A stretch of 26,350 nucleotides of DNA, from positions 1 through 26,350 of IMG/VR virus record IMGVR_UViG_3300042868_009890; one strand, given 5' to 3'. Origin of the DNA: a virus. Below are positions 9,096 through 19,926 of the stretch, in pieces. Made by a program: the position numbers and the translations under genes. The notes below the pieces were generated by a model. The model worked only from the letters and a program-made list of their open reading frames with translations, was not told the origin of the DNA and made no database searches. Numbering within the stretch: position 1 is the stretch's first letter; the number at the start of each line of letters is the position of its first letter.

Positions 9096-9446
9096 CATCT
9101 TAAGTCCATCACTAGAAAGTATGTACCAGTTACCCTCAACAAAATGAAAATGTACACAAGAACCTTTTTCTAAAAGAAGTTCGTCCCATTCTTCATCTAT
9201 TAAACCAACATCAGGTTTTATTAAAACGGTAGTCAAAGATTTAATGGTTACCGTTTTATTTTTTTCAGAATTTAATGTTACTTCAGAACTCTCAACATCT
9301 TTAACTATTACCAAAATTTCCTCATCAATCTGATGGGTTTCTGTAGTTACAATTTTGTCCTCAACAATATTTGTTGGTTTAGGTGGAATGTGTGTTTGAT
9401 ATTTAACCACATTTTTTCTTGGTGAAATATTCTCTACTCTTATCAT
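9090..9446 (-). CDS. small beta-rich protein after the neck gene
   Basis: A 118-residue protein that I do not recognise. The first third is charged and proline-containing (HIPPKPTNIVED). The rest looks like short beta strands ending in GSCVHFHFVEGNWYILSSDG, the kind of repeat-and-turn pattern seen in phage fibre, whisker or decoration domains. It overlaps the upstream neck gene by 4 nt (ATGA), so the two are probably translated together, suggesting a neck- or tail-associated role. Its TAA lies opposite the last sense codon of the polymerase, so the two genes converge and overlap by 6 nt with no room for an intergenic terminator. The function is a guess from context. Confidence 0.6.
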   Translation of the reverse strand: MIRVENISPRKNVVKYQTHIPPKPTNIVEDKIVTTETHQIDEEILVIVKDVESSEVTLNSEKNKTVTIKSLTTVLIKPDVGLIDEEWDELLLEKGSCVHFHFVEGNWYILSSDGLKMS

Positions 9447-10573
9447 ATCACATAAATTTGTCTTGGGAATGCTCTATACTTTAAACTTTTGTTCAAATTT
9501 TCAGCTAATAATGCTTCTCGCTCTAATACTTTATCGGGTCTTAGTCTTGTTAATTTACCTTCAGCACCTGTTAGTTCCTCAATTAGTTTTGTCTTTTCGT
9601 CTTTACCTTCAGTTGATAATGATTGGTAATCCATTGTTAATTCAGAATCAGGTGTTTTAAGATTACCTGAATATTTTCCTCTAACTTTTGATAACGTTTC
9701 TTTACAACTTGCAATGAACCAATTACGAACCCATACCTGTGCTGGGTGGTTTAAATCAACCCAAGATAATTTATCAATTGGGACATCAGATGGTAATTTA
9801 ATTATATCGGGATTTGATTTTAAACATTCATCCCTACCTCCTTCAGATGTGTCATAATACCAATACCATACTTTTCCTCTAGTCATTGTTCCGTTACCAA
9901 AATCAAATTTACCTCCCGGAGTATTCATTAAATGTATTGCCTTTTTACCGCCTGGTAGTGCGGTAATTCTATATGTTAAATCACCTGCTATGATTCTTCT
10001 TTGGATGTTGATTTCTTGCATTCTCAATAACATATCAAATGCTGGCATCATAAAATATGAACCTGCCATATTACCCCCCATTTGTGCAAGACCTCCTCCA
10101 CCACCAAGACCTCCACCATATCCTAATGAACCAAATGACCACGGATCAAACATTGTATTGTTTAGTGTTGCCGGAGTAAACCATAGAAGTTCATTGATTT
10201 CTCTACCTGCAGGTATTTCATAAATTTGTTGATTTTTAACTAATTGGATATAATCTTTTTTAAGTTCCCATTCTCCACCAGCTTGTAAACCAACAATTTT
10301 TGAGTAAGCGTATGTATATCTTGTTTCGTAATCTAAACTTTTTGTTACAAAGGCTCTTGATAACGATTGAGTTTCAAGATTCAAATTCCACAAACTTGTC
10401 CATTGAGATTCAATCAACCAATCATTAACTTTTTGAGAATATTCATCAATTGCGAATTCAAGAAGGGTGTCCATCTGTTCATCTTCCAATTCAACACCTC
10501 TTAAAGGAGCACCTAATAGGTGTCTTATCTTTTTATATAATTCAGATCTTTCTGGTTCGGGAATTATTGCCAT
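9443..10573 (-). CDS. T4 gp13-like neck / head-completion protein
   Basis: A 376-residue protein. The N-terminal helix pattern IRHLLGAPLRGVELEDEQMD followed by LLEFAIDEYSQ matches the start of T4 gp13-type neck proteins, which join the filled head to the tail. Conserved aromatic-rich strands follow (GEWELKKDYIQLV, IYEIPAGREINELLWF). A glycine-rich stretch at 148-172 (GYGGGLGGGGG) is low-complexity and probably a flexible loop. The C-terminal half has VWVRNWFIASCKETLSKVRG, which recalls the helix that docks on the portal ring in this family. It is transcribed with the SOD fusion and helicase on the minus strand, away from the other neck and tail genes on the plus strand. The ATG at 10573 is preceded by the ATATTTAT motif. 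Assignment is by pattern, not by alignment. Confidence 0.68.
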   Translation of the reverse strand: MAIIPEPERSELYKKIRHLLGAPLRGVELEDEQMDTLLEFAIDEYSQKVNDWLIESQWTSLWNLNLETQSLSRAFVTKSLDYETRYTYAYSKIVGLQAGGEWELKKDYIQLVKNQQIYEIPAGREINELLWFTPATLNNTMFDPWSFGSLGYGGGLGGGGGLAQMGGNMAGSYFMMPAFDMLLRMQEINIQRRIIAGDLTYRITALPGGKKAIHLMNTPGGKFDFGNGTMTRGKVWYWYYDTSEGGRDECLKSNPDIIKLPSDVPIDKLSWVDLNHPAQVWVRNWFIASCKETLSKVRGKYSGNLKTPDSELTMDYQSLSTEGKDEKTKLIEELTGAEGKLTRLRPDKVLEREALLAENLNKSLKYRAFPRQIYVI

Positions 10574-10616: not shown

Positions 10617-11705
10617 TTACTTATTTTTTAAATCAAATAGTTCATTAACAAAGTCCCAATTTACACAATCCCAAAATTTGTTAATGTATTGATCTCGTTT
10701 GTTACGGTATTTTAAATAATATGCGTGTTCCCATAAATCAAGTCCTAGTAATGGATACCCACCACCATCAACAACATTCATTAACGGATTGTCTTGATTT
10801 GGTGTTGACATTATCTTTAGTCTATTAGTCTTGGTTAATATCAACCAAGCCCAACCTGAACCAAATCTGTCTAATGAAACTTGATTAAATTCTTCTTTAA
10901 ATTTATTAAACGAACCATATTGTTTAACAATTTTATCATATACAACACCATTTGGTTTTTGTTTTTTTGGGGATAGCATTTTCCAAAACAATGCGTGATT
11001 AAAGGCTCCACCGGCATTATTTCTAACTTTTGTATCAAACTTACTTATTGATTTAATAATATCTTCTAAAGGCATTTCACCTTTTTTCTTTGATAAAGCA
11101 TCATTTAGTTTTTTAACATAACCTTTATAGTGTTTGTTATAATGAATATTCATTGTCTCAGGATCAACAAATCTTTTAATTGCGGAATATGAATATGGTA
11201 ATTTATCAATACCAATCTCCTTCATTTCGTTTAAGAAACTTTTTTGGATGTTTTCTTTTTCCGTTAAAACAATTTGTTCAGATAATAAATCTATTTTTTT
11301 TGTGATCTTTTTGAATCCTTCATACACTAATGATTCTAATTCGGGATGTTCTTTTTCAAACATCTTCATTAATCTCCCCGCAAATGCATTTGCTTCATCT
11401 TCATTCTGTCCACCAATGTCGGGACCTCTTTCTCTACCTAATATAGAGTGTTGATGTTCGTGAACCCACTCGTGAGCCAAAGTTCTTAATATATCTCTAT
11501 TAATTCTTTTTTTTGTTAGAATTTTTATAACGTGTTCTTTACTACGACTACCAGTAGTCATACCACCAATTCTTTCACCTAAAAATAAAATTTTAACATT
11601 ATGTTTTAATGGAAAATGTTTTTGTAAAAATTTTATAAACACATCCGCAAGTTCCCTACTGTCCTTATCCATTGGACAATTCATATGTTGGATTTTTACT
11701 TTCAT
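10617..11705 (-). CDS. metallopeptidase-like domain fused to Mn-type superoxide dismutase
   Basis: A 362-residue single reading frame with two recognisable parts. Residues about 35-115 carry a zinc-protease signature, AHEWVHEHQH (H78-E79-x-x-H82), followed by EDEANAFAGRLM with E104 as likely third ligand. That is the gluzincin layout seen in ImmA/IrrE-type peptidases. Residues about 169-360 are a complete Fe/Mn superoxide dismutase. The metal ligands are H188 (MNIHYNKHY), H237 (FNHALFW), D323 and H327 (DLWEHAYY). FGSGWAWLI is present. The Gly-rich NNAGGAFNH and Q304 in NQDNPLM are the Mn-type rather than Fe-type choices. A helical, charged linker (about 120-168) joins the parts. Ordinary SODs are about 200 residues. 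It probably detoxifies superoxide in the infected cell or virion; what the peptidase-like part acts on is unknown. Confidence 0.88.
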   Translation of the reverse strand: MKVKIQHMNCPMDKDSRELADVFIKFLQKHFPLKHNVKILFLGERIGGMTTGSRSKEHVIKILTKKRINRDILRTLAHEWVHEHQHSILGRERGPDIGGQNEDEANAFAGRLMKMFEKEHPELESLVYEGFKKITKKIDLLSEQIVLTEKENIQKSFLNEMKEIGIDKLPYSYSAIKRFVDPETMNIHYNKHYKGYVKKLNDALSKKKGEMPLEDIIKSISKFDTKVRNNAGGAFNHALFWKMLSPKKQKPNGVVYDKIVKQYGSFNKFKEEFNQVSLDRFGSGWAWLILTKTNRLKIMSTPNQDNPLMNVVDGGGYPLLGLDLWEHAYYLKYRNKRDQYINKFWDCVNWDFVNELFDLKNK

Positions 11706-11725
11706 TAACGATAAATATCCGTTAA
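11705..11725 (-). promoter_or_regulatory. inverted repeat around ATATTTAT at the SOD gene start
   Basis: TTAACG (11705-11710) and CGTTAA (11720-11725) are perfect inverted repeats flanking GATATTTAT on the minus strand (11711-11719). The arm nearest the gene includes the first base of the ATG. The motif is one of the eleven pre-start copies. It could be a promoter with an operator, or a small mRNA hairpin at the start codon. Confidence 0.4.
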
Positions 11726-11734
11726 ATCAAAGTT

Positions 11735-13498
11735 TTATCTTCTTTTGTTAATTGAGTTAAGGATTTCTTCTACGGTATCTCCACCACTTTCTTCCAAACC
11801 GTCCCCCATAACGGTATTTATGATTTGTTTTTTACGATTTAGAATATCGTAAATAGCACCTTCAATTGAGTTATCAAACAATGGGTAATAAACAAGAACG
11901 TTATTTTTTTGTCCGTAACGATACGCTCTATCCTCCGCTTGGGAATGCTCTGCGGGAACAAAGGACAAATCATTCATAATAACAACTTCTGCGGATGTTA
12001 AAGTTAACCCAACTCCTGCTGCTTTTAAGTTACCGATAAAAACTTTAATTTTTTCATTATCTTGGAACTGATCCACCGCATATTGTCTTTGTGGTTTTGT
12101 ACAACTACCATCAAGATAAACCGATTGTTTACCGAAATGTTGATGTAATATTTGTAGGGTGTCAGTAAAGTTTGTAAAGATGATGACTTTTTTACCTTGT
12201 TCTATAATGTTTTCGGCAACCTCTATTGTGTGTTTAATTTTTTCGTTTGCAATAATTTTTCTGACTTTCATTAGTTTACTGAACTGAACTGTAAGTGAAG
12301 ATGATTCGTCTGTTTTGTTTTCATACCAATCATAATACTCCCCCATCATTTCTTCATAATCCTTCGATTTGAGTCTCAAATAAATTGGGGTGATAATTTT
12401 GTCGGGTAAATCTAACACATCTTCTTTTAATCTACGAAGAATTTGTTTTGATGTCCTATCTCTTAATTCTTCCAAATTAGACGCCCCCGTAACGTTCCAC
12501 ACCTTTCTATTACCCGCTTTAAATTGATACCCCTGACAATAACGAATTGCATAAGCCATCCAATTTTGAGCGACGGGACTTTCAATTAATTGTAAAAGAT
12601 TGTAATAATTCATAGGACGGGATGTCATTGGTGTTCCTGTTAATAACCACGCCCTATGAACGTTTTTTACAAATGAATTAATTATTTTGGTTCGTTGTGC
12701 TTGTGGATTGGATATCATATGTGCTTCATCCAAAATAACTAAATCAAATTTACATTGTGTTAACAATGAATTTTCTTTGTCTTTGGTATCATAAAAGTTT
12801 TTCAGAATATCATAGTTAATAATCACAAAATCTGTTTCAGTTGAAAACTTCTTCCCTTCAGCAATAAAAACACTTCTATCTGAATAATTTGCAATTTCCC
12901 TTTCCCAATTTATCTTTAATGATGCGGGACATATAATTAGAATTTTTTTTGCCCCCGTTTCTAATGCCGCAATAATAGTTGACGTAGTTTTTCCAAGTCC
13001 CATATCGTCAGCAAGAATGAATCTTCTTGAACCTGCTAATTTTTCTATTGCCTCTTTTTGATGTGATAATGGGGGTCTATGTCCGTACTTTGAATAGTCT
13101 ATCTCAACCTTTTCAACGTTATGAGTTTTTATCAAAGCTGATTTTGGAACCCAAAATTCCGACAATTCACTGTTTTCAAAAAACTTACCCCAAATATGAT
13201 ATGATTTTTCTTTTTCAACCAAAAGTTTCTCAACATATACTTTATCAGGAACTTCAAGTAGATATTTTTCTTCCGCAAACTTTTTTGCAAAATATGAATC
13301 TAAATCAACCCACTTTCTTGCAACCTTTGGTTTCACATCGTGGTAATTTGTTATATAATCTGATTGTCCCCTTGTTGGGTAAAACTTTTTGTTTTTTTCT
13401 TTTTTAGATTTAATGGATAATATATAGTTATTCGCACCCGAATATGAATCAAGTATGTCCATTGCTTTTTGTTCTATCGTTTTTGATACAATATCCAA
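11735..13498 (-). CDS. SNF2-family helicase/translocase
   Basis: A 587-residue superfamily 2 ATPase. It has an N-terminal region of about 135 residues without clear domains, then the Q-like LSHQKEAIE, Walker A DDMGLGKTT (164-172), IICPASLKINWE (Ia), DEAH box LVILDEAH (253-260) and LLTGTP (285-290). The second RecA lobe has VIIFTNFTDT, LTLTSAEVVIMND and the SNF2 motif VI QAEDRAYRYGQ (520-530). It resembles SMARCAL1/HARP-like annealing enzymes more than chromatin remodelers. In phages such proteins serve recombination, fork repair or transcription, as T4 UvsW does. The frame opens with TTG at 13498. An ATG at 13462 would give 575 residues and is an equally reasonable start. It is first in the minus-strand operon, 29 nt before the SOD fusion, and diverges from the gene at 13559. 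Confidence 0.9.
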   Translation of the reverse strand: MDIVSKTIEQKAMDILDSYSGANNYILSIKSKKEKNKKFYPTRGQSDYITNYHDVKPKVARKWVDLDSYFAKKFAEEKYLLEVPDKVYVEKLLVEKEKSYHIWGKFFENSELSEFWVPKSALIKTHNVEKVEIDYSKYGHRPPLSHQKEAIEKLAGSRRFILADDMGLGKTTSTIIAALETGAKKILIICPASLKINWEREIANYSDRSVFIAEGKKFSTETDFVIINYDILKNFYDTKDKENSLLTQCKFDLVILDEAHMISNPQAQRTKIINSFVKNVHRAWLLTGTPMTSRPMNYYNLLQLIESPVAQNWMAYAIRYCQGYQFKAGNRKVWNVTGASNLEELRDRTSKQILRRLKEDVLDLPDKIITPIYLRLKSKDYEEMMGEYYDWYENKTDESSSLTVQFSKLMKVRKIIANEKIKHTIEVAENIIEQGKKVIIFTNFTDTLQILHQHFGKQSVYLDGSCTKPQRQYAVDQFQDNEKIKVFIGNLKAAGVGLTLTSAEVVIMNDLSFVPAEHSQAEDRAYRYGQKNNVLVYYPLFDNSIEGAIYDILNRKKQIINTVMGDGLEESGGDTVEEILNSINKRR

Positions 13499-15393: not shown

Positions 15394-18300
15394 ATGGCAA
15401 CTAACAGTAAAGTATTTGTATCACCAGGTGTGTACACTTCTGAAGTAGACTTAAGTTTCGTTGCTCAAAGTGTCGGTGTTACAACTTTAGGTATTGCAGG
15501 TGAAACTTCTAAAGGTCCTGCTTTTGAACCTATATTCATCCGAAACTTTGACGAATTTACTAATTACTTTGGGGGTACCTCAGCTGAAAAATTTGTGAAT
15601 ACTCAAATCCCTAAATATGAAGCGGCTTACATCGCTAAAGCATATTTACAACAATCAAATCAATTATTTGTAACAAGAATATTAGGTTTGTCAGGTTATG
15701 ATGCGGGACCATCTTGGTCTATCACAACTGTAGCGAACGTAGATCCAACAACTGTTGGGTTTAATTGTGCTAGTGGAGTAACCGTTGATTGTGAATTCGT
15801 TTGTACTTCCGCAAATACAATAGACTTCACAGTACCTTTCAGTGGATGTGACGATTCTCAAAGCACAATTTCATTTTTAAGTGATTTCCCTGATGAGATA
15901 CAATCAATATTAACAGAAACATATCAACAATTTACAGGAAGTCTTTCATCGTTAAATGATAACATTACAGGTTCAATATTTAATATTATAACCTCTAATA
16001 ATCCATCATCAGAATTAAGCATTGATTATTTCGGTTCTATAGATACAGATGATTTTAACATTTTAAATTCAACTTTTTCTGCAGGGACTAGTCTTAATAG
16101 ATTTGACGTACCTTCAGTTTCTTTTGATGCAACTGATTTAACATCTCCTCTAAATGATTCTTGGTATTACGCGTTATTTGATAATACAGGAAATGGTAAT
16201 TACACAGGATTCTCATTTTATAGTTATTATACAGGAGTAACCGCAACAACAACATCAAGTAATTGTGCTTCTTTCTACGATTATAGTATAAGTGGTACTT
16301 CAGGTATAATTAACTACAATACAAACGTAATTAATGTATGTTTACCATCAGGTTTTACAGGTGATTTGTCAGCAATTACACCAACATTTAGTGCCTGTAC
16401 AACAGGAGTTAGTGTTAATTCTGTAATTCAAGTTAGTAACTCAACGGTAGTAAATTTTTCTGCGGGAACACTAACCTATGTGTTAACATCTGAAGACAAT
16501 ACAATAACGGAAAATTTTACGGTAAATGTTGTTATTAATGATCCTTGTAATCCTTGTACATTTGCAAGTGGTGGGACTCAGAATATTGGAGAAATCACAA
16601 CTTGTTATTCGGGTGAGGTTGTTGGTAGAATTTTCCTTTACACGGGTAATTCATTTACTGATTATGATGATTTAGTTGTTGCAACTTTAAGATCAAGAGG
16701 TATTTCAGATTATGTTGACGGAACTAACCCAACTTGGGAAATTACAGGTATAACAGATGTTTCTTTAGATATGACAGGTGCATACTCTGGTGTGACTAAA
16801 AACCCATATCTTCCATTCTTAGTAAATGCAACAAATTATGATGGAACAAACTTTAGTTTTGAAACTTCGTTTTCTTCTTCAGATGCTAAGTACTTAACAA
16901 AAGTATTCGGTACAAGTAACTTTGGTAAACCAAGAAATACGGTTCCGTTATTCTTAGAAGAAAGATTTCAGTCATTATTAAACTATGCTTACAGACAAGG
17001 TTATATTAGAGGTTTGAATCCTGAATTAATATCTTTAGATTCGGCTCAAAGCTCATCGTCAACATCAGTAGGTTGGTATTTAGATAGATACCAATCTCCA
17101 AGTTCTCCTTGGGTAGTATCAGAATTAAGAGGTAATAAAGTTTTTAACTTATTTAAGTTCTACACTATTGCAGATGGTAACAATGCTAACACTGAAGTTA
17201 AAATCTCAATTACAGATATTTCTTTCGCAAACCAGACATTTACAGTTCTAATCCGAGATTATTTTGATACCGACTCAACACCAACAGTGATTGAGAAATT
17301 TACAAACTGTTCAATGGATCCAAGCCAAAATAACTTTATTGCTAAAAAAATAGGTTCTTTGGATGGAGAGTTTGAGTTAAATTCAAGATATGTTATGGTT
17401 GAGATGAACGAAGATGCTCCTGTTGATTCATTACCTTGTGGTTTTGAAGGATTCTCTTTCAGAGAGTACTCAGGTGCTAGATCTCCATTCCCAATATTTA
17501 AAACAAAATATGATTTCCCAGGTGAAGTTATTTATAACCCACCATTTGGATTACCAACAGGGGGTGATAACTCAACCACAACAGGAGGTGATAATGTAAG
17601 AAGAACATATCTTGGTATGTCAAACTTCTGGGGTTATGACACTAACTTCTTTGAATATGTTGGTAAAAGAAATCCTATCTCACCTTGTGATTTAGAAGGA
17701 GGAGAATGGTCGTACAAGACAAGAGGTTTCCATATGGATTCAGGGGCAAGTGGACTTACAATCGGAAGTGCGTTCTCAACAAGTGGTACACCAAGATTCT
17801 ATGTCGGGGACGCACCATTTAGTTCAGAACCAACAAATGAGACAAGTCCATACTATAGATTGTTCTCAAGAAAATTCACTTTGTTTGTACAAGGAGGGTT
17901 TGATGGATGGGATATCTATAGAGAATATAGAACAAACAGTGATAGATACGTTTTAGGTAGAAATGGTTTCCTTAATGGGGCTTGTGCAACAGATAGATAC
18001 CCAACTGCAACAGGATGGGGTGCCTTCAAACAAATTTCAATCGGAGACGGTACAAGAAGTTGGGCAAATACCGACTACTACGCTTACTTGTTAGGGATTA
18101 GAAGTTTCTCAAACCCTGAAGCGGTCAACATCAATGTATTTGTAACTCCTGGTATTGATTATGTTAATAATTCAGATTTAGTTGGTGATGCTGTTGATAT
18201 GATTGAAAACGAAAGAGCAGATTCATTGTATATTACAACAACACCGGACTACAACTTGTTTGTTCCTACGACAACAAATGGTGATAACTTAATATACCCT

Positions 18301-18960
18301 CAAGAGGCGGTTGATAATTTGGAAGAATCAGGAATTGATTCTAACTATACGGCAACTTACTACCCTTGGGTATTGACTCGTGATACTGTTAACAACACAC
18401 AAATTTACATTCCGGCAACTGCTGAGGTAACAAGAAACTTGGCGTTGACAGATAATATCGCTTTCCCTTGGTTCGCCGCGGCAGGTTATACTCGTGGTAT
18501 TGTTAATTCAATCAAGGCACGTAAAAAGTTAACACAAGAGGATAGAGATACTTTATATGTTGGTAGAGTTAACCCAATTGCAACTTTCTCTGATGTTGGT
18601 ACAGTAATTTGGGGTAACAAAACTCTACAAGTTAGAGAATCTGCACTTGACAGAATCAACGTAAGAAGATTGTTATTACAAGCTCGTAAATTGATTTCAG
18701 CGGTTTCTGTGAGATTACTATTCGATCAGAACGATGAACAAGTAAGACAAGACTTCCTAAATGCCGTGAACCCAATTTTGGATTCAATCAGAAGGGATAG
18801 AGGTCTTTACGATTTCCGAGTAACAGTTTCTTCAGATACTGCTGACTTAGACAGAAATCAAATGACAGGTAAGATTTATATCAAACCTACTCGTTCACTT
18901 GAATTCATTGATATTACATTCTACATTACTCCAACAGGAGCGTCGTTTGAAAATATCTAA
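15394..18960 (+). CDS. tail sheath protein (gp18-like), enlarged
   Basis: A 1188-residue contractile sheath subunit; T4 gp18 has 659 residues. The N-terminus FVSPGVYTSEVDLSFVAQSV and the following GIAGETSKGPAFEPIFIRNF are classic sheath sequence. The C-terminal third has PWFAAAGYTRGIVNSIKARK, YVGRVNPIATFSDVGTVIWG, and the conserved INVRRLLLQARKLI with LEFIDITFYITP at the end, which form the tube-facing contractile core. About 400-500 residues of extra sequence are inserted after residue 100. Part of it (about 292-384) looks like an Ig-like domain with ISGTSGIINYNTNVINVCLP, VVNFSAGTLTYVLTSEDNTI and FTVNV, a pattern common in Bacteroidota surface proteins. The insert is rich in Cys, Ser and Thr and is probably surface-exposed. 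A hairpin terminator follows the stop. Confidence 0.93.
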   Translation: MATNSKVFVSPGVYTSEVDLSFVAQSVGVTTLGIAGETSKGPAFEPIFIRNFDEFTNYFGGTSAEKFVNTQIPKYEAAYIAKAYLQQSNQLFVTRILGLSGYDAGPSWSITTVANVDPTTVGFNCASGVTVDCEFVCTSANTIDFTVPFSGCDDSQSTISFLSDFPDEIQSILTETYQQFTGSLSSLNDNITGSIFNIITSNNPSSELSIDYFGSIDTDDFNILNSTFSAGTSLNRFDVPSVSFDATDLTSPLNDSWYYALFDNTGNGNYTGFSFYSYYTGVTATTTSSNCASFYDYSISGTSGIINYNTNVINVCLPSGFTGDLSAITPTFSACTTGVSVNSVIQVSNSTVVNFSAGTLTYVLTSEDNTITENFTVNVVINDPCNPCTFASGGTQNIGEITTCYSGEVVGRIFLYTGNSFTDYDDLVVATLRSRGISDYVDGTNPTWEITGITDVSLDMTGAYSGVTKNPYLPFLVNATNYDGTNFSFETSFSSSDAKYLTKVFGTSNFGKPRNTVPLFLEERFQSLLNYAYRQGYIRGLNPELISLDSAQSSSSTSVGWYLDRYQSPSSPWVVSELRGNKVFNLFKFYTIADGNNANTEVKISITDISFANQTFTVLIRDYFDTDSTPTVIEKFTNCSMDPSQNNFIAKKIGSLDGEFELNSRYVMVEMNEDAPVDSLPCGFEGFSFREYSGARSPFPIFKTKYDFPGEVIYNPPFGLPTGGDNSTTTGGDNVRRTYLGMSNFWGYDTNFFEYVGKRNPISPCDLEGGEWSYKTRGFHMDSGASGLTIGSAFSTSGTPRFYVGDAPFSSEPTNETSPYYRLFSRKFTLFVQGGFDGWDIYREYRTNSDRYVLGRNGFLNGACATDRYPTATGWGAFKQISIGDGTRSWANTDYYAYLLGIRSFSNPEAVNINVFVTPGIDYVNNSDLVGDAVDMIENERADSLYITTTPDYNLFVPTTTNGDNLIYPQEAVDNLEESGIDSNYTATYYPWVLTRDTVNNTQIYIPATAEVTRNLALTDNIAFPWFAAAGYTRGIVNSIKARKKLTQEDRDTLYVGRVNPIATFSDVGTVIWGNKTLQVRESALDRINVRRLLLQARKLISAVSVRLLFDQNDEQVRQDFLNAVNPILDSIRRDRGLYDFRVTVSSDTADLDRNQMTGKIYIKPTRSLEFIDITFYITPTGASFENI

Positions 18961-19026: not shown

Positions 19027-19926
19027 ATGAATCATAGAATACTTGTAAGAAAAATAATGACCGAAATGGTTAATGAAATTGAGGACAAAAAGTACGGTCT
19101 CAAATATTATGCATTTGATTGGGATGATAACTTAATGAAAATGCCAACTGAAATAATATTAAAAGACGAAGACGGAAATGAAGTAGGAATGTCCACTGAA
19201 GATTTTGCAGAATACAGAACAGATATTGGAAAAAAACCTTTTGAGTATAATGGTGAAACGGTTGTTGGTTTTGCTGAAGATCCTTTTAGGTTTTTTAGAA
19301 CGGAAGGTGATCAAAAGTTTATGAGGGATATTGAAAATGCTCCGTTAGTTAGAGGTCCTTGGACAGATTTTGTGGAAGCAATCAATAATGGTTCAATATT
19401 TTCAATCATCACAGCAAGGGGACATCACCCTAACACCCTTAAAAAAGGGGTGTACAAGTTAATTATGATGGGTAGAGGTGGATTAGATAAAAGACAACTT
19501 GTTGACTCACTTAAAGAATACCGAAAAAGAATGGGGTTAAAACCTGTGGAAGATGAAAACTGGTTAATTAAAGATTATTTAGATAGATGTAAGTTTTATC
19601 CTGTTTCATATGGTGAAGGTTCCGCTACAAATCCAGAGGAAGGTAAAATCAAAGCAATGGAAGAGTTTGTAAGTTATGTAAAAAGATTATCTCTTAGATT
19701 ACAGAAAAAAGAATATCAATTTGTAAATGATGTAAGTAACAATTTTGTACCTACAACCCCGATGGTTGGTTTTTCAGATGACGATATAAGAAATATAGAA
19801 TCAATGAAAAAACATTTTGAAAAAAAGGATGATAATATATTAAGAACTTATCATACAAAAGGAGATGAAAAATATATGATGGAGCACCTAGTTAATAGGA
19901 TTGTAACGAAAATTAAATCAAAGTAA
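19027..19926 (+). CDS. HAD-superfamily phosphatase-like protein
   Basis: A 299-residue protein. HAD motif I is YAFDWDDN (nucleophile D31, acid D33). Motif II is FSIITARG (T129), a candidate motif III Lys lies at K207 or K209 in EEGKIKAMEEF, and motif IV is GFSDDD (D251-D253). These residues are the set needed for a Mg-dependent phosphohydrolase, and DWDDN is close to phosphatases rather than dehalogenases. The region between motif I and II (about 45-105) holds a cap. The substrate (nucleotide, sugar phosphate, protein or nucleic-acid end) cannot be told. It sits between the sheath and the tube genes, which in T4 are next to each other, and has its own motif, so it looks like an inserted accessory gene. 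Confidence 0.78.
   Translation: MNHRILVRKIMTEMVNEIEDKKYGLKYYAFDWDDNLMKMPTEIILKDEDGNEVGMSTEDFAEYRTDIGKKPFEYNGETVVGFAEDPFRFFRTEGDQKFMRDIENAPLVRGPWTDFVEAINNGSIFSIITARGHHPNTLKKGVYKLIMMGRGGLDKRQLVDSLKEYRKRMGLKPVEDENWLIKDYLDRCKFYPVSYGEGSATNPEEGKIKAMEEFVSYVKRLSLRLQKKEYQFVNDVSNNFVPTTPMVGFSDDDIRNIESMKKHFEKKDDNILRTYHTKGDEKYMMEHLVNRIVTKIKSK

Follow-up and report, generated by a model that had tools for sequence, protein, structure and literature searches.

A zincin domain is fused to a Mn-type superoxide dismutase in a widespread group of phage proteins

We analyzed a 26,350-nucleotide stretch of viral DNA (IMG/VR record IMGVR_UViG_3300042868_009890, positions 1 to 26,350; hereafter the window), in which one minus-strand gene at 10617..11705 encodes a 362-residue protein that joins an N-terminal zincin domain with an HExxH motif to a Mn-type superoxide dismutase (SOD). 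This fusion is real and widespread, and it is a new arrangement of known parts. We favor, with somewhat better than even confidence, the reading that the fusion protein is a head cargo, which would be cut by the prohead protease into separate enzymes and injected with the DNA.

The gene starts with ATG and its frame is uninterrupted, as a preliminary description of this DNA had stated. When the best 80 of at least 483 IMG/VR stretches encoding the zincin domain were compared, SOD was found in the same frame in 77, 70 of them complete; the other three loci comprise two stand-alone zincins of 129 residues and one truncated copy. The presence of this fusion in 70 complete relatives led us to reject a frame error. 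The window protein is a short version, as most relatives have an extra C-terminal module. No Pfam family matched residues 1 to 165 above the cut-off, and the earlier view that the fusion belongs to no established family still stands: in the part of the literature covered by our search, no paper describing a zincin-SOD fusion or an RLTESDL leader was found. Named phages likewise yielded no fusion, only SODs and, in Synechococcus phages, distant stand-alone zincins.

The SOD domain spans residues 161 to 362 (10620..11225, minus strand). Pfam Sod_Fe_N matched at 166-245 (6e-21, 75.1 bits against a cut-off of 27) and Sod_Fe_C at 252-355 (1.7e-39, 134.4 bits against 20.9), while comparison with the Protein Data Bank (PDB) gave E = 4e-60 to Mn-SOD by phmmer and E = 4e-17 by Foldseek. 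All four metal ligands noted earlier (H188, H237, D323, and H327) are present and invariant in 34 aligned relatives, and so are the second-sphere residues GG..NH and NQDNP together with Q304; GG..NH and NQDNP around the metal are typical of Mn-type SODs. By sequence, the SOD part is complete and belongs to the Fe/Mn family, Mn type, with predicted dismutase activity. It resembles bacterial Mn-SOD (SodA) in its four ligands and Mn-type second sphere, and its best PDB matches are Mn-SODs, e.g., that of Sphingobacterium (46% in Foldseek); it differs in carrying the N-terminal zincin and linker and in falling below the cut-off of the NCBIfam SodA equivalog (194 versus 363 bits).

The zincin domain occupies residues 1 to 130 (11316..11705, minus strand), a natural boundary since stand-alone zincins stop at residue 129. 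It was modeled separately, as SOD dominated the fold search with the full-length AlphaFold model. The resulting model (predicted local distance difference test score [pLDDT], 90.1; predicted template modeling score, 0.87) has a zincin-like fold, with IrrE-like proteins among its fold matches; HExxH falls within helix 70-87, and the next helix, 100-119, opens with E102/E104. The residues of the putative zinc site H78-E79-W80-V81-H82 (11460..11474, minus strand) were confirmed, with H78, E79, and H82 invariant in the 34 relatives. E104, proposed earlier as the third ligand, is less secure: E102-D103-E104 (11394..11402, minus strand) holds two candidates, both invariant in the fusions, and a diverged stand-alone zincin (L363; G015:227003-227395) keeps HExxH and E102 with Met at 104 in a hand alignment. 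Since this copy retains E102 only, E102 may be the third ligand in place of E104.

The earlier assignment of this domain to ImmA/IrrE is not supported at the level of family membership. The hallmark of that family, HExxH with a downstream Glu, is present in the window zincin, and like ImmA/IrrE (M78) and SprT-like phage zincins it has HExxH in one helix and a Glu in the helix that comes next. However, the Pfam family PF06114 did not reach its cut-off (matched in 3 of 23 members, with E = 0.035 at best) and was not among the two Pfam matches listed for the window zincin, both of which were below cut-off. In Foldseek, phage proteins matched at E = 1e-11 to 1e-4, several of them named IrrE N-terminal-like; the best viral match was a 127-residue phage protein (template modeling score [TM], 0.87), and IrrE-named (E = 2e-6 and 1e-5, TM 0.73) and SprT-named phage proteins were also recovered. 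Matches to solved structures were weak, though they included several zincins (M61, aureolysin), with an M61 peptidase as the best (E = 3e-3) and no IrrE among the listed PDB matches. A scan of bacterial and archaeal genomes found no relative of the zincin domain at that sensitivity.

Conserved motifs flanking the SOD resemble prohead protease sites

Between the two domains lies a linker, residues 131 to 160 (11226..11315, minus strand), which corresponds to the leader at the N-terminus of SODs that lack a zincin and is predicted to be disordered (pLDDT <50 over residues 130-173 of the full-length model). It is variable except for two motifs, each a predicted prohead protease site (arrows mark known or predicted points of cleavage). 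The first, L141-S-E143↓Q (11277..11285, minus strand), reads [LI]xE[QNEK] in 41/41 zincin-bearing representatives. The second, L158-N-E160↓M (11226..11234, minus strand), directly precedes the SOD and reads [LIV]xE↓M in all 148 distinct proteins, and in all 64 representatives at 85% identity, including each of the 23 leader-only, zincin-less representatives. E143 and E160 are invariant in 52/52 fused sequences, with Leu or Ile at 141 and Leu, Ile, or Val at 158. A further [LIV]xE follows the SOD in every representative with a C-terminal module (53/53), 44 of which have a second such site; the residue after Glu at these post-SOD sites is mostly S, G, A, or N.

These linker motifs, [LI]xE and [LIV]xE, match the cleavage consensus of the T4-type prohead protease gp21. 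Peptidase_S77, the family of T4 gp21, is encoded in five near-complete contigs of the lineage (290-321 kb) and in two partial contigs. The major capsid protein of the lineage is a Gp23 homologue, and all 82 of its sequences have LINE↓A at residue 60, a position resembling that of FLTE↓A (SFLTE↓A) in T4 gp23, where 65 residues are removed. In T4, Alt, a head enzyme that is ejected, is processed near both its ends, at ITE-6 and LTE-619 (PMC5694885). Of all the evidence, the agreement with the capsid site and the protease speaks most strongly for head cargo, as a match of sequences rather than a cleavage result. The lineage, one of large lake phages, matches freshwater phages that encode bS21 and whose predicted hosts are Bacteroidetes (PMC9723584), and its closest named capsid proteins include those of Microcystis phage Mel-JY01 and Flavobacterium phage immuto.

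In two contigs of the lineage, G001 and G002, [LIV][LIV]xE occurs within the first 45 residues about 1.8 times as often as in shuffled N-termini (106 versus 60 and 95 versus 52), and tighter leader patterns, many of which share MKKVIRLTESDLTRIVKRVINE, exceed shuffled sequences 4 to 6 times (72 versus 12 and 47 versus 10). A leader of the MKKVIRLTESDLTRIVKRVINE type ending in [LIV][LIV]xE may be a capsid-targeting sequence in common use. In G001 and G002 such a leader is carried by dozens of small proteins that are otherwise unrelated (loci L251-L281; e.g., G001:13969-14301 and G002:240736-241197). Within the window, a HAD-like protein with the motif FDWDDNL (19027-19926), encoded between the sheath and tube genes, has an N-terminal leader with IMTE↓M and MVNE↓I, making it by its sequence another possible processed protein.

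A predicted head-cargo polyprotein and its alternatives

According to the proposed mechanism, the gene product would be a head-cargo precursor of a T4-like phage, with the linker (the N-terminal leader in relatives) serving both to target the capsid and as a propeptide. As the head matures, the gp21-type (S77) prohead protease of the phage would cut at [LI]xE143↓Q and [LIV]xE160↓M, releasing the zincin (about residues 1-143) and a mature Mn-SOD beginning at M161; in longer relatives, cuts past the SOD would release the C-terminal module too. The freed enzymes would be packed along with DNA and then injected, whereupon the SOD may clear superoxide from the host just infected, or shield the packaged DNA, and the zincin may act on some substrate in the host. 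Cleavage, packaging, injection, and both enzyme activities are what we infer. What the sequences themselves contain is the fusion with its SOD and zincin residues intact, the motifs that never vary between modules, the conserved synteny, and, in related genomes, a protease gene and the capsid site that matches. Also in favor are the genome-wide enrichment of N-terminal [LIV][LIV]xE, the promoter-like box in common with sheath, tube, and neck genes, and the place of the segment in zincin-less relatives, at the N-terminus as in a T4 capsid-targeting sequence. Were this mechanism correct, a phage SOD would be delivered in the particle, within a polyprotein cut by the prohead protease, instead of simply being made in the infected cell, and phage entry would be linked to the oxidative state of the host. 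A simple rule, an (L/I)xE leader in a phage with an S77 protease, would then predict injection for individual members of the many unknown proteins that large Bacteroidetes phages encode.

A broader version, which we put forward tentatively and hold at somewhat less than even, is that the shared (L/I)xE leader or linker directs many enzymes into the heads for injection, as a large set whose members are exchangeable. Zincin-SOD and SOD-nuclease-like proteins would be its cleavable polyproteins, so that the host would receive an antioxidant enzyme along with a zincin and other modules at the onset of infection.

The preliminary description had also suggested that the zincin might be a metal site tying the SOD to the virion. 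Among its ideas on function, a tie to the virion comes nearest to our reading; however, since the form met most often among relatives has a leader but lacks the zincin, the tie is likelier to be the leader or linker with its protease sites. The zincin need not be cargo at all, since stand-alone zincins were seen without a leader and the copy in Synechococcus phage S-SRM01 sits amid replication genes.

Several observations, the leaderless stand-alone zincins among them, weigh against the cargo reading. The S77 gene lies outside the 26-kb window and is only predicted for the window phage from its relatives, and G003, a 274-kb and maybe incomplete contig of the group, had no S77 match. At the linker sites, the residue after Glu is Met or Gln, compared to the A, S, or G common at capsid and post-SOD sites. 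In a strict test on 210 ortholog pairs, conserved hLxE was not in excess over its D or T version, so the presence of the motif alone is weak evidence, and the leader patterns with the largest excess were composed after examples had been seen. In the window protein the segment is internal, and it is N-terminal only in zincin-less relatives. A promoter-like box ahead of the gene (see below) also precedes other genes and is found at only 17/64 capsid genes; late expression of the fusion gene is therefore unsupported. Finally, we found no virion proteomics or cleavage data for these phages.

The main rival to the head cargo is an uncut bifunctional enzyme acting in the infected cell, where the SOD would lower superoxide with the zincin as a tethered partner (e.g., clearing damaged proteins) and the linker Glu residues would be structural. 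Phage metabolic genes are usually assumed to act inside the infected cell, SODs lacking this fusion are annotated in other phages, and a single conserved frame with all SOD and zincin residues intact would fit. It leaves unexplained, however, why [LIV]xE stands on both flanks of the SOD, ahead of unrelated modules, and why the motif matches the site in the capsid protein of the same lineage, and the predicted disorder of the linker speaks against it as well; we consider it unlikely, though deserving of serious weight. A lower probability still goes to a virion protein that is not injected, with SOD and zincin residing in the head or neck, either guarding the particle or functioning at the cell surface. 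Its fixed place beside a neck or head-completion gene, the promoter-like box in common with virion genes, and the precedent of a packaged SOD in chlorovirus PBCV-1 (PMC7019647) would fit, whereas the gene on its other side encodes an SNF2 helicase.

That the zincin itself is the protease cutting the linker or other head proteins seems to us very improbable. Its HExxH and Glu are intact and its model has a zincin fold, yet SODs without a zincin conserve the preceding site just as well (23/23 leader-only representatives), several leader-only contigs, themselves partial, have no detectable zincin, and there is an S77 protease, whose family has a known specificity that fits. A fusion arisen by chance or error, be it a frame error or two genes with a lost stop, would be in keeping with the 129-residue stand-alone zincins and zincin-less SODs of related phages. 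Against this, the 77 of 80 loci fused in one frame come from contigs assembled separately, and all zincin-bearing representatives except L067 form one clan of the SOD-domain tree with support of 0.99. The conservation of the fusion refutes this explanation, and its probability is negligible.

Comparison with known systems

The nearest parallel to the proposed scheme is the head cargo of T4, Alt and the internal proteins IPI-III, which is processed by gp21: in both, a short propeptide or capsid-targeting sequence is, or here would be, removed by an S77 protease. The phage protein differs in having this segment placed between two enzyme domains, where cleavage would split a polyprotein, and in that the cargo, with packaging predicted, is an SOD plus a zincin. 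The fold and metal of Cu/Zn SOD are unrelated to those of Fe/Mn SOD. A virus-encoded Cu/Zn SOD, the product of a late gene, is packaged in the virion of PBCV-1, a location only predicted here; PBCV-1 is a eukaryotic virus, and the available part of the source mentions neither a fusion nor protease sites for its SOD (PMC7019647). By their features, the bS21-encoding freshwater Bacteroidetes phages of Chen et al. 2022 are of the same lineage: in both, the size is ~300 kb and the terminase/portal/protease/capsid region has bS21 encoded on the opposite strand; superoxide is not mentioned in the main text of that paper (PMC9723584).

Modular relatives and gene order

The SOD family is encoded by at least 600 IMG/VR stretches, and the commonest form seen lacks the zincin, having instead a leader of about 30 residues such as MKKIEEKIQQLETQILENHITKEKELLITE, then M-KKIG and the SOD. 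Relatives with the two parts as separate genes, named together with a frame error as grounds for doubt in the preliminary description, do exist: near-complete genomes G015 and G016 have a leader-SOD plus a zincin gene elsewhere; the frame error does not hold. In the fused near-complete genomes searched, SOD and zincin are each single-copy. The order SNF2 helicase, SOD, neck protein is kept at 64/64 fused and 51/51 leader-only loci; with the same order in both sets, the zincin was therefore gained or lost at one locus. In the window, the upstream neighbor is the SNF2-type helicase (11735..13498, minus strand; Pfam and synteny) and the downstream one a head-tail adaptor or neck-like protein (9443..10573, minus strand; phrog_211 and synteny). 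The zincin-bearing SOD of L067, outside the main zincin clan, may represent a second fusion or a recombinant.

The C-terminal modules past the SOD in most members are of several apparently unrelated types, with at least four swapped behind the SOD in L038, L012, L026, L170, and relatives. None had a Pfam match over cut-off, and the two types tried had no NCBIfam match. Two types have in common a weak phrog_5018 match over a D...QVKP stretch, and this conserved D...QxK sequence, of a kind typical for PD-(D/E)xK nucleases, suggests such an enzyme but is weak evidence for it.

A promoter-like box and other genes of the window

A promoter-like box, ATATTTAT (11711..11718, minus strand), ends 5 nucleotides before the start codon of the fusion gene, a spacing at which the mRNA could be nearly leaderless. 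TATTTAT precedes all 36 zincin-SOD genes at 5-7 nucleotides and all 46 leader-SOD genes, mostly at 16-23 nucleotides. Within the window, the longer box, ATATTTAT, also stands ahead of sheath, tube, and neck genes but not of the DNA polymerase or helicase gene. There it lies upstream of 5773, 10573(-), 11705(-), 13559, 15394, 19027, 19993, and 22405, and it also occurs in G001 and G002; often followed by an A-rich stretch, it is concentrated in sense orientation 0-20 nucleotides before start codons, where 95 of 122 upstream hits lie. The tail sheath protein encoded at 15394-18960 is unusually long (1188 residues), with sheath domains only in its last ~290 residues.
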